From: Geothermobacter ehrlichii
Lineage (GTDB): Bacteria; Desulfobacterota; Desulfuromonadia; Desulfuromonadales; Geothermobacteraceae
Assembly (NCBI RefSeq): GCF_008124615.1
Contig: NZ_VNIB01000001.1
Location: forward strand, 124,001-188,000
Reading direction: 5' to 3'
DNA length: 64,000 nucleotides
The stretch's first letter is position 1; each line of letters starts with the position of its first letter. The notes under the pieces were generated by a model. It did no database searches, had not been told where the DNA came from, and saw only the letters and a program-made list of their open reading frames with translations. The translations under genes and the position numbers were made by a program. Positions 4,095 to 38,717 of the stretch are shown here, piece after piece.

Positions 4095-5151
4095 GTCGCT
4101 CGATATCGCATTTTACCGGTATTCGCTGTTGAATCGCGGTGGTGACCGTATGGTGATCGAATATGCGAACCATCTGGCTGATATCGGGCATAGCGTCACA
4201 CTTTACACATCGGTTGACAAAACTGTATTTCACGTCTCTTCGAAAATCGTCCGCAAAAAGATCCCTTGGCCAGGACGAATTGGTTTTCTTGCCTGGACAT
4301 CTGTTTGCAGATTGCGGCATGCAATTACCATTGTAGACATCATTCATCTGACTCCTTTGTTACGATGTCGTGGCCATCTCGTCTATTTCGCCCAAGCCGA
4401 TGATGTGGAGTACTACGGAAAACCTTTCAATCGATGGATTGTCGATAAGCTCTATCGTCGTTTTTTTCGAAAAGACGGTTTCTGCATCGCGGTCTACAAG
4501 CATTTGACCGAAGCTTTTCGCCAGCGTTATGGCGCCAAAAACTGCTTCACAGTAGTTAATGGGATAGATCTCAGAATCTTCCATCATGAACCGGATAGCG
4601 ATCTATTGGCTGCCAAAGGGAAGAGGCGTGCGATCTTTTTTATGTCACGGGGCGATCATTATCGTAAGGGATACGATTTAGCCTTGCAGGTTTTCGCACG
4701 ACTGTCCGACGAGATTTCCGATCAGATCGAATTGTGGGTCTGTGGTGATTCCTTGCGTGGGGATTTCAGCTTTCCGGTTCGTCAATTCGGTGTGGTTGAT
4801 GATAGCCGCCTGCGACAGATCCTGAGTAGCGTCGATATTTTCTTTTATCCGTCGCGGCACGAAGGGTTTGGTCTTTTCCCGCTGGAGGCGATGGCATGCG
4901 GCAGTGTGGTGGTGACGACCGACGCTGTTCCCTATGCCTGTAACTATGGTTGTATTCACCAAACCGGCATCGGTGACGTTGAAGCCATGGTGAGAGAGAT
5001 TGTCGGGCTGGTGAACGACCCGGAACGGCTGGCCGCCGATCGAAGAGAGGGGTTTGCGGTTGCCGGGCGCTATGATCTGCGGCGGAGCTGCGATGCGTTT
5101 GCTGACGTGCTTGAATCCTTGCCGGGAGGGGCCTGTGCGCATCGGGATTGA
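4087..5151 (+). CDS. Glycosyltransferase family 4 protein (1)
   Basis: This 354-residue GT-B glycosyltransferase has the N-terminal acceptor half 'RYSLLNRGGDRMVIEYANHLADIGH' split around a glycine-rich loop. The C-terminal donor half carries the GT4 signature 'PSRHEGFGLFPLEAMACG', whose EGFGLxxLE motif positions the nucleotide sugar. I chose ATG 4087 because the alignable N-terminus begins there; a longer frame upstream lies inside the prenyltransferase gene, and GTG 4081 is a near alternative. It overlaps the stop of the prenyltransferase gene by 8 bp. Base composition over about 4120-4700 is AT-richer than the flanks, which may reflect separate acquisition, as is common in glycan clusters. 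Donor and acceptor sugars are unknown. Confidence 0.88.
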   Translation: MGKSLDIAFYRYSLLNRGGDRMVIEYANHLADIGHSVTLYTSVDKTVFHVSSKIVRKKIPWPGRIGFLAWTSVCRLRHAITIVDIIHLTPLLRCRGHLVYFAQADDVEYYGKPFNRWIVDKLYRRFFRKDGFCIAVYKHLTEAFRQRYGAKNCFTVVNGIDLRIFHHEPDSDLLAAKGKRRAIFFMSRGDHYRKGYDLALQVFARLSDEISDQIELWVCGDSLRGDFSFPVRQFGVVDDSRLRQILSSVDIFFYPSRHEGFGLFPLEAMACGSVVVTTDAVPYACNYGCIHQTGIGDVEAMVREIVGLVNDPERLAADRREGFAVAGRYDLRRSCDAFADVLESLPGGACAHRD

Positions 5152-25439: not shown

Positions 25440-25525
25440 GCCCGGGTGGTGGAACTGGTAGACACTGGGGATTTAAAATCCCCTGGACCTGGTCCGTGCG
25501 GGTTCGAGTCCCGCCCCGGGCACCA
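25440..25525 (+). tRNA. tRNA-Leu(UAA)
   Basis: This 86-nt class II tRNA has an encoded CCA end. The acceptor arms GCCCGGG (25440-25446) and CCCGGGC (25515-25521) pair perfectly. The anticodon stem GGGGA/TCCCC (25467-25471, 25479-25483) encloses TTTAAAA, placing TAA at 25474-25476. A T-arm with GGTTCGAGTCC is present, and a long variable arm as expected for Leu. Its 3' 56 nt are repeated at 37665-37720, showing that this gene is the integration site of the island that follows. Confidence 0.95.
25470..25525 (+). repeat. attL: left copy of 56-bp direct repeat
   Basis: The 3' part of tRNA-Leu, from the last G of the anticodon 5' stem to the CCA, is identical over 56 bp to 37665-37720. The flanks diverge at once on both sides. 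This is the signature of site-specific integration into a tRNA 3' end, with the intact tRNA retained at the left junction. Confidence 0.93.
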
Positions 25526-25527
25526 CT

Positions 25528-25572
25528 AATAAAAACGGGTCGTCAGCTTCGTGTTGGCGGCCCGTTTTTATT
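25528..25572 (+). terminator. Strong terminator immediately after tRNA-Leu
   Basis: An 18-bp stem (AATAAAAACGGGTCGTCA with its complement, allowing one G-U pair) closes a 9-nt loop, and the descending arm ends in TTTTTATT. It begins 2 bp after the tRNA CCA, inside the island side of the junction. It would stop the tRNA transcript before the island genes; the tRNA-like remnant at the right end has no such hairpin. Confidence 0.85.
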
Positions 25573-25647: not shown

Positions 25648-25862
25648 GTTTGTCAAGGTCGGGACAAGGTCGGCTTTGAGGCGGCTGGAGAAGAAAGGCG
25701 AGATAGTCATGCCGTACAGGGAGGCTGAGTCAGTGTTCCCCCGGAATGCCGAGCCATGGGCTGTCTTCCTCCGAGGCCGTTCATCTCCAGCTCATGGAAC
25801 ATTTGGGAGAGCCGTACTATGCCGGGCTTTTGAGTGCGGCTGAATACCATGGTGCTGCTCAT
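25648..25862 (+). pseudogene. Degenerate AbiEi-like antitoxin fragment
   Basis: Pieces of a second AbiEi can be read by switching frames: 'ALRRLEKKGEIVMPYR', then 'PPECRAMGCL', then 'LQLMEHLGEPYYAGLLSAAE' ending 'YHGAAH'. These parallel the intact AbiEi downstream ('SIKKGHLAMPYRGFYVIVPP', 'GLLSAAEYHGAAH'), with at least two frameshifts and about three-quarters nucleotide identity in the best stretch. Similarity stops exactly after 'GAAH' at 25862, four bases before the left arm of the AbiE operator. It is the amino-terminal half of a paralogous module whose remainder has been deleted or replaced by the present AbiE operon. No other coding content is seen between the terminator and this fragment. 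Confidence 0.7.
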
Positions 25863-25865
25863 ATT

Positions 25866-25924
25866 TGTATGGATTGTTTGCAAAAGTCTGCGATTAGTGC
25901 TATTTTTTGCAAACAATCCATACA
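25866..25924 (+). promoter_or_regulatory. AbiE promoter inside a 20-bp perfect inverted repeat (operator)
   Basis: Arms 25866-25885 and 25905-25924 are perfect 20-bp inverted copies separated by 19 bp. A promoter fits within them: TTGCAA (25878-25883) inside the left arm, a 17-bp spacer, and TATTTT (25901-25906) touching the right arm. The AbiEi ATG follows at 25934. AbiEi antitoxins are known to repress their own operon by binding inverted repeats in the promoter, so this is very probably that operator. Confidence 0.82.
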
Positions 25925-25933
25925 GGTGGCGAC

Positions 25934-26713
25934 ATGTTTTCCGAAATTATTTCACAGTTGGCGTCAGAGGGAAGGACTTGCTTCTGCTTCGATGAGCTGA
26001 AGAAGCGAGTCGACTCGTCTTCGGATGCGCTCAAGTCGGCAATAAGTCGGTCGATCAAAAAAGGTCACCTGGCGATGCCGTATCGGGGGTTCTATGTCAT
26101 CGTGCCCCCGGAATATCGTTCCCTGGGCTGCCGACCGGCAGAACAGTTTATTCCAGATTTGATGCAACACTTGGGAGAGGTTTACTACGTCGGATTGCTG
26201 AGCGCGGCTGAGTATCATGGCGCAGCGCATCACCGCCCCCAGGTGTTTCAGGTCGTGGTCGCCAAGCCACGCAGGACGATTAAATGCGGCAGGGTCAGAG
26301 TCGATTTTATCGTCAAAAAGAATGTCCATGACATGCCGACCCAGTCGCGTAATACCCCCGCCGGTATTCTGAAATTTTCTACTCCGGAATGTACCGCTTT
26401 TGACCTGGTTGGCTACTTTAAACAATGCGGTTGGCTGGACAATGTTGCCACCGTTCTGGCCGAGTTGTCTGAAAAACTGGATGGCCAAAAACTGGTAAAC
26501 ATCGTTGATCGATTGCCGATCGCCTGGGCGCAGCGGTTGGGTTATTTGCTGGAATTGGTCGAGGCATCGAAGGTCGCCGAGCCATTGGCGGAGTTTATAG
26601 AAATGAAGAGGCCGGTTCGCACCCCGCTGCTGTCCTCAGCGGACACCAAGGGAGCCAGATACAACAGTCGCTGGAGACTGTTCGTGAACACCAAGGTCGA
26701 GGCAGAGGTTTGA
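25934..26713 (+). CDS. abiEi: Type IV toxin-antitoxin antitoxin, AbiEi family
   Basis: A 259-residue antitoxin and autorepressor. The N-terminal winged helix-turn-helix covers about residues 1-65 ('CFDELKKRVDSSSDALKSAI', 'KKGHLAMPYRGFYVIVPP'). The C-terminal AbiEi domain has 'GLLSAAEYHGAAHHRPQVFQ', 'KFSTPECTAFDLVGYF' and 'AQRLGYLLELVEASKVAEPL'. ATG 25934 has AGGTGG upstream; a TTG at 25907 would start inside the operator and is rejected. The stop overlaps the TTG start of the toxin gene. In the AbiE model the toxin is held in check without direct binding (type IV) and the pair causes abortive infection. It is intact, unlike the decayed paralogous fragment just upstream. Confidence 0.92.
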   Translation: MFSEIISQLASEGRTCFCFDELKKRVDSSSDALKSAISRSIKKGHLAMPYRGFYVIVPPEYRSLGCRPAEQFIPDLMQHLGEVYYVGLLSAAEYHGAAHHRPQVFQVVVAKPRRTIKCGRVRVDFIVKKNVHDMPTQSRNTPAGILKFSTPECTAFDLVGYFKQCGWLDNVATVLAELSEKLDGQKLVNIVDRLPIAWAQRLGYLLELVEASKVAEPLAEFIEMKRPVRTPLLSSADTKGARYNSRWRLFVNTKVEAEV

Positions 26714-27528
26714 TCCCCAGGGCTTATATCGATGGGTGGAGAAAGCATGCACCCTGGTCCGAAGCCGCACAGGTCGAACAAGACCTGGTGATATGTCGTG
26801 CACTTATCGAGATTTTCAGTCGCCCTCTGTTGGCAAAAAGCCTGGCTTTTCGTGGCGGCACAGCTCTGTTCAAGCTGCACATGCCTGCGGCCCGTTACTC
26901 CGAGGACATCGATCTGGTCCAGGTGGAAGCGGGGCCGATCGGTCCGGTCATGGACGAGTTGAGAGGTTGTCTCGATCCTTGGTTGGGGAACCCGCAGCGC
27001 CGACGCAACGAGGGTCGGGTGACCCTGGTGTACCGCTTTACTTCAGAAGATGATCTCCCCTTGAGGCTCAAGGTGGAAATCAACACCCGAGAGCATTTCG
27101 CCATCCATGGATTTCGGCAATTTCCGTTTGCTGTGGAATCGCTATGGTTTTCTGGAGAGGCGGGAATACTGACTTATGACCTTGCAGAGTTGCTGGGAAC
27201 CAAATTGCGTGCGCTCTACCAGCGTCGCAAGGGGAGGGATCTCTTCGATCTCTGGTACGCGGCCCAAAATGTCAGCCCGCCTCCCGATGAACAACAAATC
27301 GTAGATACTTTCCTTCATTACATGGCCCATGGTGGACATCAGGTCAGCCGAGCGCAATTCGAGCAGAACCTTTTCGGCAAAAAGGAAGACCCGCAGTTTG
27401 TTGGTGATACCGGACCGCTTTTGACCAGCGATAGTGCCTGGGATTTCAATCAGGCGTTTCAATATGTCATGGATCATCTGGTTTCGCGTTTGCCGGGCGA
27501 ACCTTGGCAGGGACGCGAAGGCCAGTGA
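26710..27528 (+). CDS. abiEii: Nucleotidyltransferase toxin, AbiEii/AbiGii family
   Basis: A DNA-polymerase-beta-like nucleotidyltransferase of 272 residues, the toxin half of AbiE. The catalytic motif 'FRGGTALFKLHMPAARYSED' places GGT at residues 49-51 and is followed by 'SEDIDL' at 64-69, with Asp66 and Asp68 as likely metal ligands. The family's later motif 'GTKLRALYQRRKGRDLFDLW' (KGRDLFDL) is also intact. TTG 26710 overlaps the antitoxin stop, giving translational coupling. Relatives transfer nucleotides to RNA or to tRNA ends and stop growth on phage infection. All visible motifs are present, so the pair is probably functional. A terminator lies 134 bp downstream. Confidence 0.92.
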   Translation: MIPRAYIDGWRKHAPWSEAAQVEQDLVICRALIEIFSRPLLAKSLAFRGGTALFKLHMPAARYSEDIDLVQVEAGPIGPVMDELRGCLDPWLGNPQRRRNEGRVTLVYRFTSEDDLPLRLKVEINTREHFAIHGFRQFPFAVESLWFSGEAGILTYDLAELLGTKLRALYQRRKGRDLFDLWYAAQNVSPPPDEQQIVDTFLHYMAHGGHQVSRAQFEQNLFGKKEDPQFVGDTGPLLTSDSAWDFNQAFQYVMDHLVSRLPGEPWQGREGQ

Positions 27529-27770: not shown

Positions 27771-30131
27771 GTGAAGAAAAAATCACTCTCCGAACGCGAT
27801 ATCTGCACCAAATACATTACTCCGGCGATTCAGTCAGCAGGGTGGGACATACACACGCAGGTACGTGAGGAAGTGACCTTCACAGCCGGCCGCATTATCG
27901 TGCGCGGCAAGCTCTATTCAAGAGGCGAGAAAAAGCGAGCCGATTATATCCTCTACCACAAGCCAAACCTGCCAATCGCTGTCATTGAAGCGAAAGACAA
28001 TAACCATACCATCGGACATGGCATGCAGCAGGCACTTGAGTACGCCGAGGCCCTGGATGTGCCATTTGCTTCCAGTTCCAATGGCGACGGTTTCGTTTTT
28101 CACGACCGAACCGGCTTGTCAAATCCGGTCGAGCAGCACTTGTCACTCGATGAATTCCCTTCCCCTGGGGCTCTCTGGCAACGCTACAAGCAGTGGAGAG
28201 GGATTGAGCCACCGGTCGAAGACATCATCAATCAGCCATACTACAGTGACGGCAGCGGACGCGAGCCGCGCTATTATCAGCGTGTAGCCATCAACCGGAC
28301 AGTTGAGGCGATCGCCAAGGGACAGAATCGCATCCTGCTGGTCATGGCGACCGGCACCGGCAAGACCTACACCGCCTTCCAGATTATCTGGCGTTTGTGG
28401 AAGTCACGCATCAAGAAACGCATCCTGTTTCTGGCCGATCGCAACATCCTCGTTGACCAGACCAAGACCAACGACTTCAAGCCGTTTGGTCAGGCGATGA
28501 CCAAAATCGAGAAGCGGCAAGCTGACAAATCCTACGAAATTTATCTTTCTCTTTACCAGGCGGTTACCGGCAGGGAAGAAGAGAAGAACATCTACAAACA
28601 ATTCTCTCCGGATTTTTTCGATCTCGTAGTGATCGACGAGTGTCATCGCGGCAGCGCTGCCGAGGATTCGGCCTGGAGGGAGATCCTCGATTACTTCTCC
28701 AGCGCCACCCATGTCGGCCTGACTGCCACCCCGAAAGAGACCAAGGACGTTTCCAATATTCACTATTTCGGCGAGCCAATTTATACCTACTCCCTCAAGC
28801 AGGGGATCGAAGACGGCTTTCTGGCACCCTACAAGGTGGTGCGGATTGACCTGGACAAGGACTTGACCGGCTGGCGTCCGGAAAAGGGCAAGGTCGACAA
28901 ACAGGGACTTTTGATCGAAGACCGCATCTACAACCAGAAGGACTTCGACCGTACCCTGGTGGCTGAGAAGCGTACTGAACTCGTTGCCCGCAAAGTGACG
29001 GAGTTTCTCAAGGCGAGCGACCGCTACGCCAAAACCATCGTTTTCTGTGAGGATACCGACCACGCCGAGCGGATGCGCCAGGTGTTGGTGAACGAGAATG
29101 CCGATCTCGCCGCCGAGAACAGTAAGTACGTGATGAGGATCACCGGCGATGATCAGGTCGGCAAGATGGAACTGGACAATTTCATCGACCCGGAAAGCCG
29201 CTATCCGGTCATCGCCACAACCTCCCGCCTGATGAATACCGGCGTCGACGCCCAGACCTGCAAGTTGATTGTCCTCGACCAGACCATCCAGTCGATGACC
29301 ACTTTCAAGCAGATTATAGGGCGGGGTACTCGCATCAACGAGGACTACGGCAAGTTCTACTTCACCATCATGGACTTCAAAAAGGCGACCGAACTGTTTG
29401 CTGATCCTGCTTTCGATGGCGACCCGGTACAGATCTACGAGCCGGATGAAAACGATCCGCCGGTCCCGCCCGATCCACCGGAAGATGGTGAGGATGGAGA
29501 AGGCGGACCAGATGGCGAGCTTTCTCCACCGGAACCTCCGGGCGACGGAAAGGGAGAGCCTCGGGTCAAATACATTGTCGACGATGTGCCGTTCTGGGTG
29601 GTTGCTGAGCGGGTGCAGTACTACGGCAAAGACGGCAAGCTGATCACCGAGTCGCTCAAGGACTACACCAAGCGAACTGTCAGACAGAAGTTCAAATCAC
29701 TGGACGATTTTCTTCGGCGCTGGAATGAGGCCGATAAGAAGCAGGCTATTATCCGTGAATTGGAAGAACAGGGCGTGCTGCTCGAGGCGCTGGCCGAAGA
29801 GGTGGGGAAGGAGTTCGGGCCGTTCGATCTTATTTGCCACGTTGCGTTCGACCAGCCGCCACTGACCCGGCGTGAGCGTGCGGAGAATGTCCGTAAACGC
29901 AACTATTTTACAAAATACGGGGAACAGGCAAGGGCAGTTCTAAACGCGCTTCTGGACAAATATGCGGACGAGGGCGTTGAAAACATCGAGGATCTCAAGG
30001 TGCTGCGGATCAACCCCTTCGACAGCATTGGAACTCCGACTGAAATCGTCAACCAGTTCTTTGGCGGCAGGCAGAACTACGAACAGGCTCTCCGCGAGCT
30101 GGAAGAGCAGCTATATGGGGTTGAGATGTGA
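27771..30131 (+). CDS. hsdR: Type I restriction endonuclease subunit R (EcoEI-type)
   Basis: A 786-residue motor/nuclease subunit. The PD-(D/E)xK nuclease is at the N-terminus: Asp58 in 'RADYILY' and 'EAK' at residues 73-75. Helicase motifs follow: Walker A '[12 protein letters not shown]' at about 192-203, DECH at 289-292 in '[11 protein letters not shown]', '[12 protein letters not shown]', and motif VI 'QIIGRGTRI'. The C-terminal region (from about 560), with an acidic/Pro-rich linker and '[20 protein letters not shown]', matches the EcoEI R-protein C-terminal domain. It is shorter than EcoKI-type subunits, as usual for this group. GTG 27771 has GGGAGGG upstream. With HsdM and HsdS it would cut unmodified DNA far from its site. 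Confidence 0.94.
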
Positions 30132-30937
30132 AATCTTTAGAAGAGTTGAAAGCGGATAGTTCCTACAGGGATGTTCGTTTTTATCGAATATTCGGTATTG
30201 AAAGGCTTTTTCAGCTTATCAATGATGAATCACTTGCCCTCCTTGCCCCTAGAAAATGGGAAGATCCTTACGAGAAGGCTCTTCAGGATATGCTGGAGAC
30301 CAAAAATCGTTTTAAGATTTACGGTCTTTGTTGGTCATCTCGCTCCAGATCAGATGCCTTGTGGCGAATATATTCTCCGAATAGTTTAGGTGTTCGCGTT
30401 TCAACAACTGTTGGCCGTGTTATTGACTCGATTAGACCCGGTAAATATTTTTCTGAAAAGCATTTTTTTATCGGAGATGTCTCTTATTTGCCTGAGAAAA
30501 CCAATTATCCTGACCGCCCTTTTGATTTTAGAAAGGGCAAACTCTCATTGAAGCAGAGCGATTTTAATCGTCGGATAACAACGATTTCTGACGCAATCAA
30601 GGACATGGTTGTAGATAAGTCCAAAAACATACCTAGGCAACCAGCCGATATTGCTAAGACATTTTTGGTGAAAAGGAAAGCCTTTGATCACGAGAGTGAA
30701 GTGCGCTTCATCTACGTAGATGGCCGATCTTCTGAAGCTGATGATGGAGTGTTCAAGATACCTATTGATCCAGTAACTCTCATCAGTACTATCGAGTTCG
30801 ATCCACGAATGAATGATGACGTTTATGAATCCCTACGCAAAGCGGTATTGGCCAACCTCCAAGGCCGAGAACATAAAATCAGAGTAACCAAGTCCGATCT
30901 GTACAAGTCTCCGGAAAAACTCATTTACTCAAAATAA
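30128..30937 (+). CDS. DUF2971 family protein inside hsd operon
   Basis: 269 residues, no signal peptide or membrane helix. It fits the DUF2971 layout: an N-terminal '[20 protein letters not shown]' followed by '[12 protein letters not shown]' (the usual p..W.DP.E motif), '[18 protein letters not shown]' (aromatic/Trp core), and '[19 protein letters not shown]', the conserved K.....E.E.R. block. DUF2971 proteins often occur in defence loci, but their activity is not established to my knowledge. The GTG start overlaps the hsdR stop (GTGA), so it is translated with the restriction subunit, and hsdM begins 11 bp after it. Composition is clearly AT-richer than hsdR and hsdM, pointing to insertion into an older RM operon. 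Confidence 0.82.
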
Positions 30938-30948
30938 GAAAGGTGCGA

Positions 30949-32418
30949 ATGTCAGTATCAACTACCATCAAATCCATTCAGGACATCATGCGTAAAGACG
31001 CTGGAGTTGACGGCGACGCGCAGCGCATCGGCCAGCTTGTCTGGATGTTCTTTCTGAAAATCTTCGACGACCAGGAGCAGGAACTCGAACTGCTTCAGGA
31101 CGACTACACTTCACCGATCCCCGAGCGGCTGCGCTGGCGCAACTGGGCCGCTGATGCCGAGGGAATCACCGGCGACGAGCTGCTCGACTTCGTTAACAAC
31201 GACCTGTTCAAGACCCTTAAGGAGCTTGAATTGAACGCCGGGACCAACGGGCGCGGCCTGGTGGTGCGTTCGGTGTTCGAGGATGCCTACAACTACATGA
31301 AGAACGGCACCCTCATTCGCCAGGTGGTCAACAAGATCAACGAGATCGACTTCAACCGCTCCAGCGATCGCCATCTTTTCGGCGATATCTATGAGCAGAT
31401 CCTCAAGGACTTGCAGAGTGCTGGCAATGCAGGGGAGTTTTACACCCCGCGCGCCGTCACCCAATTCATGGTCGATATGGTCGATCCGAAACTGGGTGAG
31501 AAGATTCTCGACCCCGCCTGTGGTACCGGCGGGTTCCTTGCCTGTTCCATTGAGCATGTGCGCGGCAAATACGTCAAGACAGCCGAGGATGAGCAGATAT
31601 TGCAGCAGTCGATCTTTGGTGTAGAGAAAAAGGCACTGCCGCACCTGCTCTGCACTACCAACATGCTGCTGCACGGCATCGAGGTGCCGTCCAACATCCG
31701 CCACGACAACACCCTGTCGCGCCCGCTACGCGACTACGGCCCCAGGGACCGGGTCGATGTGGTGGTCACCAACCCGCCGTTCGGCGGTACCGAGGAGGAC
31801 GGCATCGAAACCAACTTTCCGGCCAGTTTCCGCACCCGCGAAACCGCCGACCTTTTTCTGGTGTTGATCATACACCTGCTTAAGGATGGTGGCCGTGCCG
31901 CTATCGTTTTGCCCGACGGCACCCTGTTCGGCGAGGGCGTCAAGACCCGCATCAAGGAGAAGCTGCTAAAGGAGTGCAACCTGCACACTGTGGTGCGTCT
32001 GCCCAATGGTGTGTTCAACCCCTACACCAGCATCAAGACCAACCTGCTTTTTTTCACCAAGGGAGAGCCGACCAAAGAAGTCTGGTACTACGAGCACCCC
32101 TATCCCGAAGGATACAAGAGCTACTCCAAGACCAAGCCGATGCGCATCGAGGAGTTCGAACCCGAGAAGGCCTGGTGGGAGAACCGGGTGGAGAACGAGC
32201 GGGCCTGGAAGGTCTCCATCGAGCAGATCAAGGCCAATGGCTACAACCTCGACATCAAGAACCCCAATACCGTTGAAGAGGACCACGGTGATCCGGAGGA
32301 GCTGCTGGGCGAGTACAAGGCGCTGCTGGCCAGCGTGGCCGAGGCGCGTGAGGCGCTGAAGCGGGAATTGATGGATGCTCTGGAGCGGGATGCCGATGTA
32401 GCGAGGGAGTCAGCATGA
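30949..32418 (+). CDS. hsdM: Type I DNA methyltransferase subunit M
   Basis: An N6-adenine methyltransferase of 489 residues. The N-terminal HsdM domain has 'IQDIMRKDAGVDGDAQRIGQ', typical of the group. The SAM-binding motif I is 'ILDPACGTGGFL' with Asp188, and the catalytic NPPF is at residues 275-278 in 'VVTNPPFGGTEEDGI'. Other conserved blocks are 'AGEFYTPRAVTQFMVDMVDP' and 'PNGVFNPYTSIKTNLLFF'. ATG 30949 is favoured over GTG 30943 because AAAGG lies six bases upstream. It protects host DNA and, with HsdS, forms the methylase. Its stop overlaps hsdS by 4 bp. Confidence 0.95.
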   Translation: MSVSTTIKSIQDIMRKDAGVDGDAQRIGQLVWMFFLKIFDDQEQELELLQDDYTSPIPERLRWRNWAADAEGITGDELLDFVNNDLFKTLKELELNAGTNGRGLVVRSVFEDAYNYMKNGTLIRQVVNKINEIDFNRSSDRHLFGDIYEQILKDLQSAGNAGEFYTPRAVTQFMVDMVDPKLGEKILDPACGTGGFLACSIEHVRGKYVKTAEDEQILQQSIFGVEKKALPHLLCTTNMLLHGIEVPSNIRHDNTLSRPLRDYGPRDRVDVVVTNPPFGGTEEDGIETNFPASFRTRETADLFLVLIIHLLKDGGRAAIVLPDGTLFGEGVKTRIKEKLLKECNLHTVVRLPNGVFNPYTSIKTNLLFFTKGEPTKEVWYYEHPYPEGYKSYSKTKPMRIEEFEPEKAWWENRVENERAWKVSIEQIKANGYNLDIKNPNTVEEDHGDPEELLGEYKALLASVAEAREALKRELMDALERDADVARESA

Positions 32419-34439
32419 CCGTAGAGACGTTCTTTGCCAATTTCGGACATCTGGCCGATGCGCCCAATGGGGTGCAGAAGTTGCGGGAGTTGATTCTTCA
32501 GCTGGCGGTACAGGGGAAATTGGTGCCGCAGGACCCCAACGATGAGCCTGCTTCGGTTTTGTTGGAGAGAATTGATTGTCATAAAAAAGAATTGCTTGCC
32601 AAAAAAGTGATTAGGAAATCAGCCACTCTCTTCCCTAAAGAAGAGGCGCCGGCAGTCTATCCTTTACCACTTCAATGGGAATGGGCTTTGCTCGGGCGGA
32701 TTTCTACTCTATTGGTTGATGGATCTCACAACCCTCCCCCGAAGAGACCTGACGGCATTCCAATGCTGAGTGGGCAGAATGTTGAAAATAACAGCATCAA
32801 CTTCCGAGCTTCTCGCTACATTACGGAAGAGGACTATCTAATTGAGCGTGAGCGAAATCCGATTCAAGCTGGCGATGTTTTTTTGACTATTGTTGGCACT
32901 ATTGGACGTTCAGCGGTTGTCCCTGAACAAATGCCCAAGTGTGCTCTTCAACGCAGTATTGCTCAACTTAGGACCGGAATTTTTCCTTACTATCTCAGCT
33001 TTTATTTACAGTCTGTTATTGCTCACGAATACTTCTACTCTCATGCAAAAGGAACGGCTCAGAAAGGGATTTATTTGAACAAGGTAAGCTTGTTGCCTGT
33101 CCCTCTCCCCCCCTTCGAAGAACAAAAACGCATCGTCGCCAAGGTCGACCAACTCATGGCTCTGTGCAACGAACTCGAAGCCCGCCAGCAAAAGCAGCAA
33201 CAGGTGCGGGTGCGCCTCAATAACGCCGCCCTCGACGCACTGCTCACCGCCCGCGAACCCGACGAATTCGCTGACCACTGGCAGCGCATTTGCAACAACT
33301 TTGACCTGATCTACGACCACCCCGAAACCATCGCCAAACTCCGCGCCGCCATCCTTCAACTCGCCGTCCAGGGCAAACTCGTCCCCCAAGACCCCAACGA
33401 TGAGCCTGCTTCGGTTTTGCTGGAGAGGATTAAGGCTGAGAAGGAGAGGTTGGTTAAAGAAGGGAAGATTAAAAAGCAGAAGCCACTCCCAGAGATTGAT
33501 GAAAGTCTAGCTCCATTCGAGATTCCTGCTGGGTGGGCTTGGGCAAGGTTCCCTGAGGTAGGGGAGTTTGGCCGTGGGAAATCAAAACACCGGCCCCGAA
33601 ATGATCCTTCCTTATATTCGGGCGGGAAATACCCAATGGTTCAAACTGGTGATGTTGCTAGGGCCAATGGGGAAGTCAGGACCTATACTGCACTTTACAA
33701 TGATGCTGGGTTAGCACAAAGCAGGCTGTGGCCAAAGGGAACCATGTGTATAACCATTGCCGCAAATATTGCTGATAGCGCGGTTCTCGGTTTTGATGCC
33801 TGTTTCCCGGATAGTGTAGTAGGGCTTATCGCATCACAAGAAATTGGTGATGTTCGTTATTTCGAGTATTTTATTCGTACAGCTAAAGAACGTTTGATGG
33901 ATTTTGCTCCGTCAACTGCTCAGAAGAATATAAATCTCGGAATTCTCGAAACAGTTTACATTCCTTTGCCACCACTAGCGGAAATGAAGCGCATCGTCGC
34001 CAAAGTCGATCAACTCATGTCCCTGTGCGACAAACTCGAAGCCAAACTCAACCAAGCCCAGCAGCACAGCGAAAAACTGATGGAAGCCACCGTTCGACAG
34101 CTGTTGGAGCCCTCGGCCCCACCAAAACCGCAGACAAATGGAGTGACGCTGGTTTCTGACGCCAGTAGTCCGGGTCAACAAGTTCGCCACGCCTATCAGC
34201 TCGCACCGGATATTGCCGAGCCACTGGCAGCTGAGGCCGTAGTTGATTACGGCGGTTCCGTTCCCGAAGCCATCCTCGCCGTCATGCAGTCGGGGCAGGC
34301 ATACTCCCGCGCCGATATCCTCGCTGCCACCGGTATCCGCGAAGCCGATTGGGTGTGGGCAATCAAGCAACTCAAGGAGCAGGGGCGGGTGGTGCAGAAG
34401 GGAGAGAGGCGCGGGGCGCGCTATGTAAAGGCCGATTAG
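32415..34439 (+). CDS. hsdS: Type I specificity subunit S with extra C-terminal winged helix
   Basis: A 674-residue specificity subunit. Two target-recognition domains (about 65-235 and 350-515) are each followed by a conserved spacer helix: 'QKRIVAKVDQLMALCNELEA' and 'MKRIVAKVDQLMSLCDKLEA'. The segment 'ILQLAVQGKLVPQDPNDEPA' occurs before each TRD, giving the half-repeat structure of S subunits. Residues about 600-674 ('EAILAVMQSGQAYSRADILA', 'WAIKQLKEQGRVVQKGERRG') form an additional winged-helix-like domain, found in some but not all HsdS. TRD1 is notably AT-rich next to the conserved spacers, as expected of swapped recognition modules. It overlaps hsdM (ATGA). Confidence 0.93.
   Translation: MTVETFFANFGHLADAPNGVQKLRELILQLAVQGKLVPQDPNDEPASVLLERIDCHKKELLAKKVIRKSATLFPKEEAPAVYPLPLQWEWALLGRISTLLVDGSHNPPPKRPDGIPMLSGQNVENNSINFRASRYITEEDYLIERERNPIQAGDVFLTIVGTIGRSAVVPEQMPKCALQRSIAQLRTGIFPYYLSFYLQSVIAHEYFYSHAKGTAQKGIYLNKVSLLPVPLPPFEEQKRIVAKVDQLMALCNELEARQQKQQQVRVRLNNAALDALLTAREPDEFADHWQRICNNFDLIYDHPETIAKLRAAILQLAVQGKLVPQDPNDEPASVLLERIKAEKERLVKEGKIKKQKPLPEIDESLAPFEIPAGWAWARFPEVGEFGRGKSKHRPRNDPSLYSGGKYPMVQTGDVARANGEVRTYTALYNDAGLAQSRLWPKGTMCITIAANIADSAVLGFDACFPDSVVGLIASQEIGDVRYFEYFIRTAKERLMDFAPSTAQKNINLGILETVYIPLPPLAEMKRIVAKVDQLMSLCDKLEAKLNQAQQHSEKLMEATVRQLLEPSAPPKPQTNGVTLVSDASSPGQQVRHAYQLAPDIAEPLAAEAVVDYGGSVPEAILAVMQSGQAYSRADILAATGIREADWVWAIKQLKEQGRVVQKGERRGARYVKAD
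32532..32561 (+). repeat. Direct repeat in hsdS, copy 1
   Basis: A 30-bp sequence before TRD1 that is identical to 33390-33419 before TRD2; similarity continues less perfectly on both sides. The copies are 858 bp (286 codons) apart and in the same frame, so recombination between them would delete one TRD without a frameshift. Confidence 0.85.
33390..33419 (+). repeat. Direct repeat in hsdS, copy 2
   Basis: The second, in-frame copy of the 30-bp hsdS repeat (see copy 1). The shared codons encode 'DPNDEPASVL'. Confidence 0.85.
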
Positions 34440-34460: not shown

Positions 34461-35231
34461 TTGAAATATCGCATCTACATTGACGAGGTTGGCAACCCGG
34501 ACCTCGAAAGCTCTGACAACCCGAACCATCGTTTCCTGAGCTTGACCGGTGTCATCATTGAACTTGGGCATGTGCAGGATGTCGTGGCCCCGCAACTGGA
34601 GGCCTTGAAAAGAGAGTATTTCCGTTCACACCCGGACGAGCCGGTTATCCTCCACCGGAAGGAACTCGTGAACATGAAGAATCCCTTCCATGTTCTCAAA
34701 GATCCGGAAGTGAGAGGACGCTTCGATAAACAGCTCCTTCGGCTGCTAACCGATTGGCAATACAGCGTCATTTCGGTCTGCATTGACAAAAAAAATCACA
34801 AGGACACCTACCAGGTCTGGCGATACGAGCCTTATCACTATTGCCTGGCCGTTTTGCTGGAGAGATATTTCTTCTTTCTGAACGAGAAGGGATGCCAAGG
34901 CGACGTTATGGCGGAATCTCGAGGTGGCAAAGAAGACATGCGCCTCAAGAAATCATTTGCCGCTCTTTGGGATGAGGGTACGGAATACATCCCTGCCGAG
35001 AAATTTCATGGCGTCTTGACCAGCAAGCAACTCAAGGTCAAACCGAAGACCAACAACGTCGCTGGACTGCAACTGGCCGACTTGCTGGCGCATCCAAGCC
35101 GCAACGAGATACTCAAGGAAAAGGATCTTTTGGAGAGTGGGTTGAGACCGTTTGGTCAGGAAATTGTGAAAATTCTTCGGGAAAAGTACTATCAGCGGGA
35201 TGGGAGGGTTTTCGGGAAGAAATTTATCTGA
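34461..35231 (+). CDS. DUF3800 domain protein (RNase H-like fold)
   Basis: 256 residues. The N-terminus 'MKYRIYIDEVGNPD' carries the DUF3800 signature (YxDE.G) with Asp8 and Glu9. Further acidic residues in the expected order are the Glu of 'VMAESRGG' near 150 and the Asp of 'VAGLQLADLLAHP' near 208. This is the pattern of an RNase H-like nuclease active site. Many DUF3800 proteins sit in defence islands. TTG 34461 has a strong GAGGAGGG. It lies 21 bp after hsdS, so it is probably the last gene of the hsd operon, although its link to restriction is only positional. Substrate unknown. Confidence 0.85.
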   Translation: MKYRIYIDEVGNPDLESSDNPNHRFLSLTGVIIELGHVQDVVAPQLEALKREYFRSHPDEPVILHRKELVNMKNPFHVLKDPEVRGRFDKQLLRLLTDWQYSVISVCIDKKNHKDTYQVWRYEPYHYCLAVLLERYFFFLNEKGCQGDVMAESRGGKEDMRLKKSFAALWDEGTEYIPAEKFHGVLTSKQLKVKPKTNNVAGLQLADLLAHPSRNEILKEKDLLESGLRPFGQEIVKILREKYYQRDGRVFGKKFI

Positions 35232-35373: not shown

Positions 35374-35653
35374 GTGCAAACTCAAAAATATTCCGTCAAC
35401 CAGCACCTCATCGAAACCATCCTCGCCTAGGTCAATTCCGGCGAGATTGCCATTCCGGGAATCCAGCGTCCCTTTGTGTGGGACGCCACCAAAGTCCGTG
35501 ACCTGATGGACTCCCTCTATAAAGGGTATCCGATTGGCTACCTGATCGCCTGGCGCAATCCCAATGTCAAGTTGAAGGATGGCACGACATCCGAAGGGTA
35601 AGAAGGTTCTGATCGACGGTCAACGACGCGTGATGGCAGAATCAGTTAAATAA
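35374..35653 (+). pseudogene. Truncated DUF262 (GmrSD-type) gene fragment
   Basis: From GTG 35374 (preceded by AGGGGG) the sequence reads 'VNQHLIETILA', then TAG where Trp is expected, then '[20 protein letters not shown]' and '[20 protein letters not shown]', then a frameshift at the Gly-Lys junction. The shifted frame gives '[14 protein letters not shown]' before ending at 35653. These blocks are the N-terminal DUF262 domain of GmrSD-like type IV restriction enzymes: 'IP.IQRPFVW' and the 'LIDGQQR' NTP-site motif. The rest of the usual 500-plus-residue protein is absent. It has a nonsense mutation, a frameshift and a 3' deletion, so it is dead. The remaining part of this 440-bp interval has no other gene. 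Confidence 0.8.
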
Positions 35654-35673: not shown

Positions 35674-36522
35674 ATGTTTTCACCGAAATTGCCGCATCTG
35701 GAGGATGATGGCCTGATTACACCTGAAGTCGGGTTTTGGGGTGAGACCAAGTATCGCCTGGTACAGAACTATGCCAGCATGTTTACTTCCGCGATGAAAG
35801 GCAAATGGGACCATCTGGTGTATGTGGACCTGTTTGCTGGATCTGGTCGGGCGCTACTTGACGAAAGCAGGGCAATTGTTCCGGCGTCGCCGTTGCTTGC
35901 CATGGAGATAGATCACCCCTTTAGCCGATATATCTTCTGCGAACAGAACGAGGAAAAACTTCATGCTTTGCGGTTGCGGGTTGAAAGAGATTACCCACAG
36001 AATGATGTCTGTTACCTTCTCGGCGACGCCAACCAGCTGGTTGAAGACATCCTTGCTGAAATGCCCGCTTATGGCGGAGGGTCAAAAGTCCTCGGATTCT
36101 GTTTTGCCGATCCTTACAACCTGGAGAGCTTGAAGTTCGATACCCTCAGGAAGCTCGCGCAACGGTTTTTTGATTTTCTGGTTCTGATCCCGACCGGCAT
36201 GGATGCGCAACGCAATATCGATCGTTATGCAGCGAGTCCACGATCAAAACTTGATGATTTTCTCGGGACAATGGAATGGCGTAAGGCTTGGGAAGAGGCT
36301 CGGCGTAAAGGACAAAAGGCGGAAATTTTCCTGACGGAGTTTTTTGGGACACAGATGGGATCAATGACTTATCTTGTCCCACCTGTCGACGAAACTGTTA
36401 AAATACGAAACAGAAAGACGACGATTTATCGCCTGGGCTTCTATAGTCGCCATCCTCTTGCCAGGAAGTTTTTCAAAGAAGCCCGGAAATACAGCGAAGA
36501 TCAGCTGGGATTCGGTTTCTGA
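35674..36522 (+). CDS. tcmP: Three-Cys-motif partner protein TcmP
   Basis: 282 residues. The fold resembles a Rossmann methyltransferase: 'YVDLFAGSGRAL' with Asp52 and the GSG at 56-58 resembles motif I, 'EQNEEKLHALRLRVERDYP' fits motif II, and 'GFCFADPYNLESL' (Asp146-Pro147-Tyr148) fits the DPxx catalytic motif of DNA/RNA methylases. The N-terminal 'WGETKYRLVQNYASMF' and the HPL near the end ('SRHPLARKFFKEA') are typical of the TcmP family, so named because it is found next to a partner with a three-Cys motif. That partner follows here after one base. A GGGGGG site precedes the ATG. Whether it methylates anything has not been shown to my knowledge. Confidence 0.88.
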   Translation: MFSPKLPHLEDDGLITPEVGFWGETKYRLVQNYASMFTSAMKGKWDHLVYVDLFAGSGRALLDESRAIVPASPLLAMEIDHPFSRYIFCEQNEEKLHALRLRVERDYPQNDVCYLLGDANQLVEDILAEMPAYGGGSKVLGFCFADPYNLESLKFDTLRKLAQRFFDFLVLIPTGMDAQRNIDRYAASPRSKLDDFLGTMEWRKAWEEARRKGQKAEIFLTEFFGTQMGSMTYLVPPVDETVKIRNRKTTIYRLGFYSRHPLARKFFKEARKYSEDQLGFGF

Positions 36523-36523
36523 C

Positions 36524-37273
36524 ATGAGTACAAAATCAAAAATCGAATGGACCGAACAGACCTGGAATCCGGCCGTTGGCTGCACCAAGGTTTCACCCGG
36601 TTGTGCGAACTGCTATGCTGAGGTCATGGCCCGTCGTCTGGAAGCGATCGGGGTGAAAGGTTATGAGAACGGGTTTGAGTTGACCCTGCTTCCGGAACGG
36701 CTGGATGAACCACTCAGGCGGAAGAAGCCGACAGTCTATTTCGTCAACTCGATGAGTGACCTTTTTCACGAAGAGATCCCCTTTGACTACATCCGCAAGG
36801 TGTTCGCAACGATAGAGAAAACCCCACAACACACGTACCAGATCCTGACCAAGCGTGCCGAACGCATGATCGGGTTTTTCTCCACCTACAAGCCACCGAA
36901 AAACGCCTGGCTGGGCGTCACGGTCGAAGACCGGAAACATGGTTTGCCCCGCATTGACTGCTTGCGCAAAGTTCCTGCCTTCATTCGCTTTCTCTCGGCG
37001 GAACCCTTGCTGGAAGACCTGGGTGAAATCGACCTGACAGACATTCACTGGGTCATCGTCGGGGGGGAGTCAGGATATCGGGCGCGGCCCATGAAGCCGG
37101 CATGGGCCAGCAACATCCAACGACAGTGTGCCCGGCAAGGGGCCTCTTTTTTCTTCAAACAGTGGGGAGGCTGGGGACCGGATGGCGTGAAGCGCCGGAA
37201 AAAAGAAAACGGCCGTGTTCTTGAAGGGCGCACGTGGGATGAAGTTCCCGACTTGGGTATTTTGAGTGAATGA
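36524..37273 (+). CDS. DUF5131 / phage Gp37-Gp68 family protein, three-Cys motif
   Basis: 249 residues from ATG 36524; the longer frame lies within tcmP. The N-terminus 'EWTEQTWNPAVGCTKVSPGC' continues 'ANCYAEVMARR', giving Cys20, Cys27 and Cys30 as C-x6-C-x2-C, probably an iron-sulfur site of radical-SAM-like type. Later family blocks are 'VYFVNSMSDLFHEEIPFDYI', 'TYQILTKRAERM', 'NAWLGVTVEDRKHGLPRIDC', 'RFLSAEPLLEDLGEIDL' and 'WVIVGGESGYRARPM', ending with 'FFFKQWGGWGPDG'. This alpha/beta-barrel-like pattern resembles radical SAM enzymes such as spore photoproduct lyase. Only one base separates it from tcmP, so they form a two-gene unit. The reaction is unknown. Confidence 0.88.
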   Translation: MSTKSKIEWTEQTWNPAVGCTKVSPGCANCYAEVMARRLEAIGVKGYENGFELTLLPERLDEPLRRKKPTVYFVNSMSDLFHEEIPFDYIRKVFATIEKTPQHTYQILTKRAERMIGFFSTYKPPKNAWLGVTVEDRKHGLPRIDCLRKVPAFIRFLSAEPLLEDLGEIDLTDIHWVIVGGESGYRARPMKPAWASNIQRQCARQGASFFFKQWGGWGPDGVKRRKKENGRVLEGRTWDEVPDLGILSE

Positions 37274-37398: not shown

Positions 37399-37488
37399 AT
37401 GGCTCGACATCGAAAATCATCAACTGCCGAAGATGTAGTCGATATTGTCAGTCTCTTCCCTTGGTGGGTAGGTTGCGCATGCTTGTGA
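37399..37488 (+). pseudogene. N-terminal stub of Mrr-like restriction endonuclease
   Basis: ATG 37399 opens a 29-codon frame 'MARHRKSSTAEDVVDIVSLF' then 'PWWVGCACL' and stops. As I recall, this closely matches the N-terminus of a family of membrane-anchored Mrr-type endonucleases ('MARRKKSS..EDL..L...LPWWVG') that normally continue with two membrane helices and a nuclease domain. Neither is present: the following 170 bp up to the repeat contain only stops in all three frames. The recognisable part is short, so this call is tentative. Apart from this stub the 391-bp stretch from the DUF5131 stop to the right repeat is AT-rich and holds no gene I can support. Confidence 0.5.
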
Positions 37489-37664
37489 CAAATTTGTGAA
37501 ATGTCTCGCCAACTCGTGGTATCAGCCTGCCGTACTTTGTAACAGTTCACAATAAATTGTGCTGAAACTAAAAGATGTTTAAGTTTTCGATATCACTTGC
37601 TTTTATTTGTTGTTGGGTGTGGTTGTCTGTCGTAGTTTGAGGTGCTGTGGAAATGTACTGGTGT

Positions 37665-37720
37665 GATTTAAAATCCCCTGGACCTGGTCCGTGCGGGTTC
37701 GAGTCCCGCCCCGGGCACCA
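37665..37720 (+). repeat. attR: right copy of 56-bp direct repeat (partial tRNA-Leu)
   Basis: Identical to the last 56 nt of tRNA-Leu(UAA), including the anticodon loop, variable arm, T-arm and CCA, but with no 5' half, so it is not a functional tRNA gene. It marks the right end of the island, 7 bp before the stop of the convergent thioesterase gene. Confidence 0.93.
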
Positions 37721-38405: not shown

Positions 38406-38717
38406 ATGAGACAGTGTCCGCACGGAGAGCCGATGAAACAGACCGACCTGAGTGCCATCTACCAGGCGACCCTGCAGAAATGGGGGGAAGAAGCACAGTT
38501 CGACCAGGCGATCGAGGAATGCGCCGAACTGATCGCCGGCCTGAAACACTACAAACGCCGCAAGGTAGATGCCGAAGCGGTCATCCAGGAGCTGGCCGAC
38601 GTGACCCTGATGGTGGGACAGCTGACCTGGATGTTCGGCGAAGAGAAGGTGCAGCAGGCGGTCGCCGCCAAGCTCGACAAGCTGCGGCGGCTTCTGGCCG
38701 ACGATGCGGCCCTGTAG
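38406..38717 (+). CDS. Small MazG-like NTP pyrophosphohydrolase
   Basis: 103 residues. The all-alpha NTP-PPase pattern is visible: 'FDQAIEECAELIAGLKHYKR' (EE..E) and 'IQELADVTLMVGQLTWMFGE' (E..D), whose acidic residues bind Mg2+. It is a single domain, shorter than MazG proper. ATG 38406 has GGAGG 8 bp upstream; ATG 38433 is also preceded by GGAG and would give 94 residues. It probably cleans modified or non-canonical nucleotides, but its substrate is unknown. The 252 bp upstream, divergent from the thioesterase, hold no recognisable gene and no clear consensus promoter. Confidence 0.82.
   Translation: MRQCPHGEPMKQTDLSAIYQATLQKWGEEAQFDQAIEECAELIAGLKHYKRRKVDAEAVIQELADVTLMVGQLTWMFGEEKVQQAVAAKLDKLRRLLADDAAL

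Follow-up and report, generated by a model that had tools for sequence, protein, structure and literature searches.

A TcmP-DUF5131 gene pair in a genomic island of Geothermobacter ehrlichii: a mobile candidate phage-defence module that may act on a nucleic-acid base

The stretch of DNA analyzed here (the window) comprises 64,000 nucleotides of the Geothermobacter ehrlichii contig NZ_VNIB01000001.1 [RefSeq: GCF_008124615.1], positions 124,001 to 188,000 of the forward strand, and carries two adjacent genes encoding a methyltransferase-like protein, TcmP, and a protein of the DUF5131 family with a predicted barrel of the radical S-adenosylmethionine (SAM) type. The pair is of an already catalogued candidate phage-defence kind, for which no tested function was found in the literature searched. 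We put forward tentatively, rating it slightly below an even chance, that it is a mobile, defence-island-borne two-enzyme module in which DUF5131, a member of the spore photoproduct lyase (SPL) fold group, and the RlmJ-like TcmP act jointly on a nucleic-acid base in phage defence. The two genes and their conserved sites are as follows.

35674 to 36522, forward strand: TcmP, methyltransferase-like partner (short form), 282 amino acids (open reading frame (ORF), TIGR04474, PADLOC and predicted fold); motif I D52-LFAGSG-58, motif IV D146-P147-Y148 and the invariant K26.
36524 to 37273, forward strand: DUF5131, radical-SAM-type barrel, 249 amino acids (ORF, PF07505, PADLOC and predicted fold); C20/C27/C30 and the invariant D79, T109-K110-R111, E135, E160-P161, GGESG (180 to 184), R188 and K212.

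Both genes are intact and lie on the same strand with a single base between the stop codon of TcmP and the ATG of DUF5131; the two-gene unit and the motifs described in the initial annotation were recovered in the ORF calls, the translations and the family matches. TcmP matches the NCBI family TIGR04474 with 132.6 bits against a cut-off of 53 (profile positions 2-260 of 263) and DUF5131 matches PF07505 with 360.1 bits against a gathering cut-off of 28.9 (positions 1-243 of 243), so that the pair is a member, above the curated cut-offs, of the NCBI grouping of TcmP with DUF5131/Gp37-Gp68. The Pfam search of the window TcmP gave no match. The NCBI name of TcmP is "three-Cys-motif partner", the partner meant being presumably DUF5131. 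In PADLOC, TcmP matches PDC-M41A with an expectation value (E) of 1.9e-25 and PDC-M30A at just 1.8e-4, and DUF5131 matches both PDC-M30B (4.6e-111) and PDC-M41B (2.9e-109); the window has the gene content of PDC-M41 (adjacent A, TcmP, and B, DUF5131), and there is no difference in kind from PDC-M41/PDC-M30. DUF5131 is also related to the Radical SAM mobile pair protein A (TIGR04471; E 2e-28), of which it is not a member, its 99 bits lying below the cut-off of 355. It falls into phrog_2045, a PHROG of unknown function; no PHROG was found for TcmP at E 0.001.

The marked residues are real motifs rather than chance matches. K26, D52 and D146 are unvarying in 64 of 64 aligned TcmPs, motif IV holds the Asp in all 64, the Pro in 61 and an aromatic residue (Y, F or W) in 61, and the conserved SAM-site glycines are kept. 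C20, C27 and C30 are likewise unvarying in all 59 aligned DUF5131s, the invariant residues of which gather at, or just past, the predicted strands, as would be typical of an active site. A further cysteine, C202, a candidate for the catalytic hydrogen-donor Cys of SPL, is invariant in the 21 rows of another alignment.

The model of TcmP (predicted local distance difference test score, pLDDT, 92.4) adopts a Rossmann methyltransferase fold. RlmJ, the 23S rRNA m6A2030 methyltransferase, is its top match both in Foldseek (E 4.8e-8) and in VIA (Z 14.9, root-mean-square deviation (rmsd) 3.5, 215 residues aligned), with the tRNA enzyme Trm1 close behind. RlmJ is also found when the PDB sequences are searched with a TcmP profile (E 1.9e-5), and hhalign aligns TcmP with E. 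coli RlmJ at a probability of 94%, a GSPLIA-like stretch being common to both; because these sequence matches add to the fold match, the relationship is strengthened. D146 of TcmP aligns with D164 of RlmJ, and the D164A and K18A mutants of RlmJ are reported to lose activity (PMC3814359). TcmP is thus, as judged from profiles and models, a remote homologue of the rRNA adenine-N6 methyltransferase RlmJ with the catalytic Asp-Pro kept, from which it differs in missing the insert after motif I and the RlmJ Pfam match, in having a radical-SAM-type partner and in being mobile.

The DUF5131 model (pLDDT 92.7) is a partial TIM barrel of radical-SAM type. Its best VIA match is SPL (Z 13.8, rmsd 2.8, 197 residues aligned, 12-14% identity), and all five Foldseek matches under 0.001 are SPL; viperins come second as a fold group (Z 11.7 and 11.5), followed mostly by other radical-SAM enzymes, and lipoyl synthase and RlmN are also among the best VIA rows. 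A solved-structure relative was sought by sequence and rejected, the one match being at chance level (E 0.87). The closeness of the predicted DUF5131 fold to that of SPL is presented as new here, as are the remote homology of TcmP to RlmJ and the constant pairing described below. The earlier description of a methyltransferase-like protein joined to a radical-SAM-like one is borne out by the predicted folds and the invariant three-Cys site, and the closest fold relatives of the pair, SPL and RlmJ, both act on nucleic acids.

Of the 277 genomes searched in the class, 26 have a TcmP match (23 over the cut-off) and 40 a DUF5131 match (35 over the cut-off); among 395 genomes sampled across the phylum, 60 have a TcmP match, 51 of them above the cut-off. 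The partnership was analyzed in 73 genome loci from the class and phylum searches, a TcmP being taken as intact at 260 amino acids or more and 60 bits or more (66 genes at 64 loci) and a partner being a radical-SAM-type gene within 300 bp or fused; the nine loci set aside comprise eight with a fragmentary TcmP and one without a TcmP match at the threshold, and the TcmP matches below the cut-off in G260, G267:C61, G336, G347, G370 and G441 were left out. Each of the 64 loci at which TcmP is intact has such a partner, which is DUF5131 in 53, another protein in eight and a fused domain in three, the queries for the "other" class coming partly from the same loci and having been chosen after Cys motifs had been noticed next door. 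Six of these eight were checked in Pfam, four matching SPL PF20903 (L329, L330, L344 and L347) and two Radical_SAM PF04055 (L328 and L337), and the L345 and L346 partners were recognized by a phmmer match alone. At L344 the TcmP is of the short type (279 amino acids) and an SPL-domain protein stands in the place of DUF5131. The fusions carry PF20903 (L326) or PF04055 (L324 and L325); the PF04055 type recurs in genome G677, where residues 6-574 of 585 are 52% identical, and the PF20903 type was found in one of ten searched genomes of its class. Chance adjacency of a radical-SAM gene is expected to be rare, since the genome of the window has just 37 PF04055 matches in 3.24 Mb. Two contig-cut or fragmentary TcmP matches also have DUF5131 next door.

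The order of the genes is not fixed. Among 101 TcmP matches on viral contigs, some of which were counted twice, 56 are convergent with DUF5131, 17 have TcmP first, 15 have DUF5131 first and 13 show no DUF5131 in the locus (some of these loci being short). The 3′ ends of the convergent pairs (e.g. L137) overlap in 55 of 56 cases with stop codons counted, an odd arrangement where co-transcription would be expected. On a tree of 194 DUF5131s, a quick one with many weak branches, order or orientation changed at least 13 times among the 143 paired rows, and the paired or solo state 15 times. The linkage has outlasted these repeated rearrangements, which argues for a joint function.

Defence genes are over-represented around the pair, as the initial annotation had anticipated: at E≤1e-20, 175 PADLOC models were matched among 146 neighbour ORFs and 12 among 142 control ORFs, a tally of models, not proteins, which overlap and make the ratio overstate the effect, so that it gives a direction and not a fold-change. 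Of the 175, 25 were listed individually. The neighbours flank 22 class loci chosen for DUF5131, 18 of them with an intact TcmP; the controls come from 18 arbitrary fixed regions, 14 of which lie in genomes already represented among the neighbour loci and four elsewhere in the class, two 1-kb regions and one ORF over the residue limit being left out. Both sets used simple longest-ORF calling and excluded ORFs above 1300 amino acids. A parallel Pfam tally, in which the best 25 of 218 and 212 families were compared, was uninformative.

DUF5131 matches occur in 410 of 72,556 plasmid records, and evident defence genes lie near the pair at five of nine annotated plasmid loci, namely, at one locus each, a DNA methyltransferase-helicase-GIY-YIG-PIN set, DUF262, BREX, DUF1837-helicase neighbours which we take to be Hachiman-like, and two Abi proteins; a tenth plasmid locus carries no annotation. 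Large methylases of Eco57I/TaqI_C type adjoin TcmP in L324, L326 and L329. For Sinorhizobium meliloti, a table of NolR-related expression lists TcmP together with the defence gene Hna (PMC12445080).

In the window itself the pair adjoins a complete type I restriction system within an island of 12.2 kb, which lies between a tRNA-Leu gene and an exact 56-bp repeat of the 3′ part of that tRNA. The remaining island features, all on the forward strand, are:

25440 to 25525, forward: tRNA-Leu(TAA), left end of the island (ARAGORN and Rfam); the left copy of the repeat spans 25470-25525.
25943 to 26713, forward: AbiEi-like antitoxin gene (full-length family match; the mechanical ORF starts at 25907).
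26710 to 27528, forward: AbiEii-like nucleotidyltransferase toxin gene (full-length family match).
27771 to 30131, forward: hsdR, type I restriction subunit (full-length family match).
30128 to 30937, forward: DUF2971 gene (PADLOC PDC-S31) between hsdR and hsdM (Pfam and PADLOC matches).
30943 to 32418, forward: hsdM (full-length family match).
32415 to 34439, forward: hsdS with two specificity-domain matches (full-length family match).
34461 to 35231, forward: DUF3800 gene (ORF and Pfam match).
35374 to 35653, forward: GmrSD_N/DUF262 stub (PF03235 match; in-frame stop, frame change).
37399 to 37488, forward: possible remnant of an Mrr-type restriction gene (weak tblastn matches).
37665 to 37720, forward: right copy of the 56-bp repeat, right end of the island (100% identical to the tRNA-Leu 3′ part).

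The genes next to the pair had been described as broken. This holds on the left, where PF03235 (GmrSD_N) is matched at E 6e-12 over profile positions 12-53 of 199 only, with an in-frame stop before the domain and a frame change after it. The Mrr-like identity of the 29-residue stub on the right is weakly supported: it has no Pfam match, its best tblastn hit (E 5e-4) is a hypothetical protein, and among the best eight of ten records two matches at E 0.1 are annotated as restriction endonucleases. The wider claims, that the island as a whole is decaying and that the pair has been selectively preserved within it, are not supported, since HsdR, HsdM, HsdS, AbiEi and AbiEii are full-length and other island genes are as intact as the pair. 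Nor is there support for the suggestion that the pair is useful by itself, a complete type I restriction system being its neighbour here and such a system following the same tRNA-Leu in genome G004. The ratio of nonsynonymous to synonymous substitution rates (dN/dS) is 0.17 for TcmP, 0.16 and 0.07 for DUF5131 in two comparisons and 0.05-0.07 for hsdM and hsdR; both TcmP and DUF5131 are under purifying selection, and the view of the pair as a decaying relic was rejected on these ratios (0.07-0.17) and on the full-length hsd and AbiE genes.

A tRNA gene called by ARAGORN at 37635-37720 was rejected, lacking Rfam support and matching the left copy in its last 56 bases alone, and no structured RNA was accepted near the pair, just the left tRNA reaching Rfam gathering scores between 25000 and 39000. 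A self-mobile island was likewise rejected: the ORFs read between the repeats include no integrase, and the eight PF00589 matches of the genome are all on other contigs. The AbiEi gene is preceded by a degraded, partial copy of its coding region, with two stretches of 77% and 75% identity (25729-25862 and 26096-26230).

In a genome of the same family (G003, locus L322) homology extends across the tRNA-Leu as far as window position 25543 and starts again 132 bp later with window position 38424; the island is thus absent there, as are about 700 bp right of the repeat bearing a thioesterase-like ORF (labelled by eye). In G004, taken as Geothermobacter hydrogeniphilus HR-1, a type I restriction locus follows the tRNA-Leu on contig C40 (L323), and contig C71 (L004) carries the pair and, after it, the right flank known from the window, the two contigs being unjoined in the assembly. 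Between the window and HR-1 the nucleotide identity is 97.5% for TcmP and 92.8% for DUF5131 and 75-82% for right-flank segments; the synonymous distances (dS) are 0.07 and 0.24 for the pair, compared with 0.74 in hsdM, 1.49 in hsdR and 0.91 in one gene of the right flank. Because the pair is so much closer than the flank and the hsd genes, we read these sequences as indicating that it probably moved laterally or recombined after the species split, separately even from the hsd genes. In HR-1 TcmP and DUF5131 are separated by some 100 bp that include a short duplication (L004, 2553-2652) and an extra fragment of the TcmP/DUF5131 junction lies downstream (4904-5011); both are recombination scars.

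The pairing, the fusions, the folds, the conserved sites, the purifying selection, the lateral movement and the defence neighbourhood are supported; from here on we infer a nucleic-acid substrate, catalytic activity of either protein, an order of steps and a role in defence. Joint action on one base is favoured as the most economical mechanism. TcmP and DUF5131 would belong to a single pathway or complex acting on a DNA base (possibly an RNA one), TcmP flipping the base and methylating or holding it, and the radical-SAM partner abstracting a hydrogen and rearranging or elaborating the base, the product of which would mark or disable nucleic acid during phage defence. A precedent for methylation followed by radical chemistry is known in tRNA, where Trm5 acts first and the radical-SAM enzyme TYW1 follows, building on m1G. 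We favour such a methylate-then-radical-functionalise scheme over repair, RNA modification and viperin-like chemistry. A bolder extension, which we consider rather unlikely, would make TcmP with an SPL-type radical-SAM enzyme a general, undescribed base hypermodification machine with DUF5131, SPL-domain and other radical-SAM proteins as exchangeable effectors on one methyltransferase platform, the methyl group placed by TcmP being activated by the radical enzyme and the product marking self or poisoning phage DNA.

Several observations weigh against the proposed joint action. The structural lead of RlmJ is slim, many methyltransferases reaching Z 13-14.5 in VIA; motif IV of TcmP is the DPPY of RlmJ minus its second Pro, and K26 of TcmP may correspond to the catalytic motif X Lys of RlmJ, K18, but three MAFFT runs put K18 at Y27 or Q31. 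The cysteines of DUF5131 are spaced C-x6-C-x2-C (6,2) instead of the canonical C-x3-C-x2-C, the 3,2 spacing of SPL, and the Pfam search of the protein gave neither a PF04055 match (E≤0.1) nor one to SPL PF20903; because of this spacing and the missing PF04055 match DUF5131 is termed "radical-SAM-type" and is not filed as a member of the radical SAM superfamily. A contig-cut TcmP over the NCBI cut-off (genome G017) lies on a 4.6-kb contig that bears no radical-SAM gene, the genome itself giving no PF07505 match, and no radical-SAM partner was seen beside the shortened TcmPs of L348 and L351. DUF5131 for its part occurs alone in 39 rows of the tree and is found in 161 of 50,697 phage records, against two matched by the window TcmP, a divergent query; in a metagenome-assembled genome (L005) hsdR, hsdM and hsdS sequence is followed by a TcmP of which just the final 37 codons are left, and then by an intact DUF5131. 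Four of the nine annotated plasmid loci show no evident defence neighbour, although one of these four has a toxin-antitoxin pair about 4 kb away.

The alternative that survives best, while still unlikely in our judgement, is repair, in which the pair would reverse or remove a DNA lesion or a foreign base modification, TcmP recognizing or flipping the base and DUF5131 serving as an SPL-like lyase. The closest fold of DUF5131 is indeed that of a DNA repair lyase, SPL-domain proteins replace it beside TcmP, phages carry it, and one Burkholderia plasmid copy of the pair adjoins error-prone polymerase genes; a recognition subunit, however, would not need the SAM-site glycines and the catalytic-type Asp-Pro that TcmP keeps, and the neighbours are rich in defence models. 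Slightly less probable still is modification of tRNA or rRNA that would tune or block translation, perhaps on infection. It would account for RlmJ and Trm1 being the structures nearest to TcmP, but not so readily for the patchy and mobile distribution of the pair, for the GMT-like winged-helix domain in 24 of 36 mostly long-form TcmPs, or for the DNA restriction genes that are its frequent neighbours. That the pair is a selfish or toxin-antitoxin-like unit, or a regulator of the adjoining restriction system, without an enzymatic product would fit its tight coupling, its mobility and the frequent overlap of gene ends, but we hold it improbable given the invariant catalytic-type residues of both proteins and the presence of the pair beside several unrelated systems. 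Least probable is that DUF5131 makes a modified nucleotide poisoning phage synthesis, as the viperin barrel match and the antiviral action of viperins might suggest, since that match lies some two Z units under SPL and within the range of other radical-SAM enzymes and the nucleic-acid-methyltransferase-like partner would be left unexplained.

The initial annotation knew of no characterization of such a system, which stands as regards function and fails as regards recognition, both components being already in NCBI and PADLOC. In a literature search whose coverage excluded preprints and most subscription papers, no functional study of TcmP, DUF5131, Gp37/Gp68, PDC-M41/M30 or radical-SAM defence was recognized among the papers listed, the hits being mentions in annotations and counts of PDC systems. 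A survey that predicts PDC-M30 in 32 of 100 Pseudomonas aeruginosa strains, 68.8% of them resistant, a correlation only, describes PDC systems as lacking experimental validation (PMC10855318), and another PDC pair, PDC-M63AB, is reported to have shown no defence activity when assayed (PMC12409345). The TcmP and DUF5131 families are widespread, yet without a tested function in the literature searched; the swaps and fusions link SPL-type radical chemistry to this orphan family of methyltransferase-like proteins and turn an uncharacterized candidate into a direct question, namely what the pair does to a nucleic-acid base. If the proposal is true, radical modification or repair of nucleic acid would join bacterial immunity.

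Other arrangements of the genes were met among the loci. Six (L063, L064, L278, L279, L281 and L284) have one DUF5131 accompanied by two TcmPs, frequently a short form and a longer one, which suggests a three-protein variant. At L342 a second radical-SAM gene (PF04055, 8453-9475) directly adjoins the TcmP-DUF5131 pair, and at L327 (8058-9350) an N-terminal piece of TcmP continues into a phage-integrase domain within one ORF.

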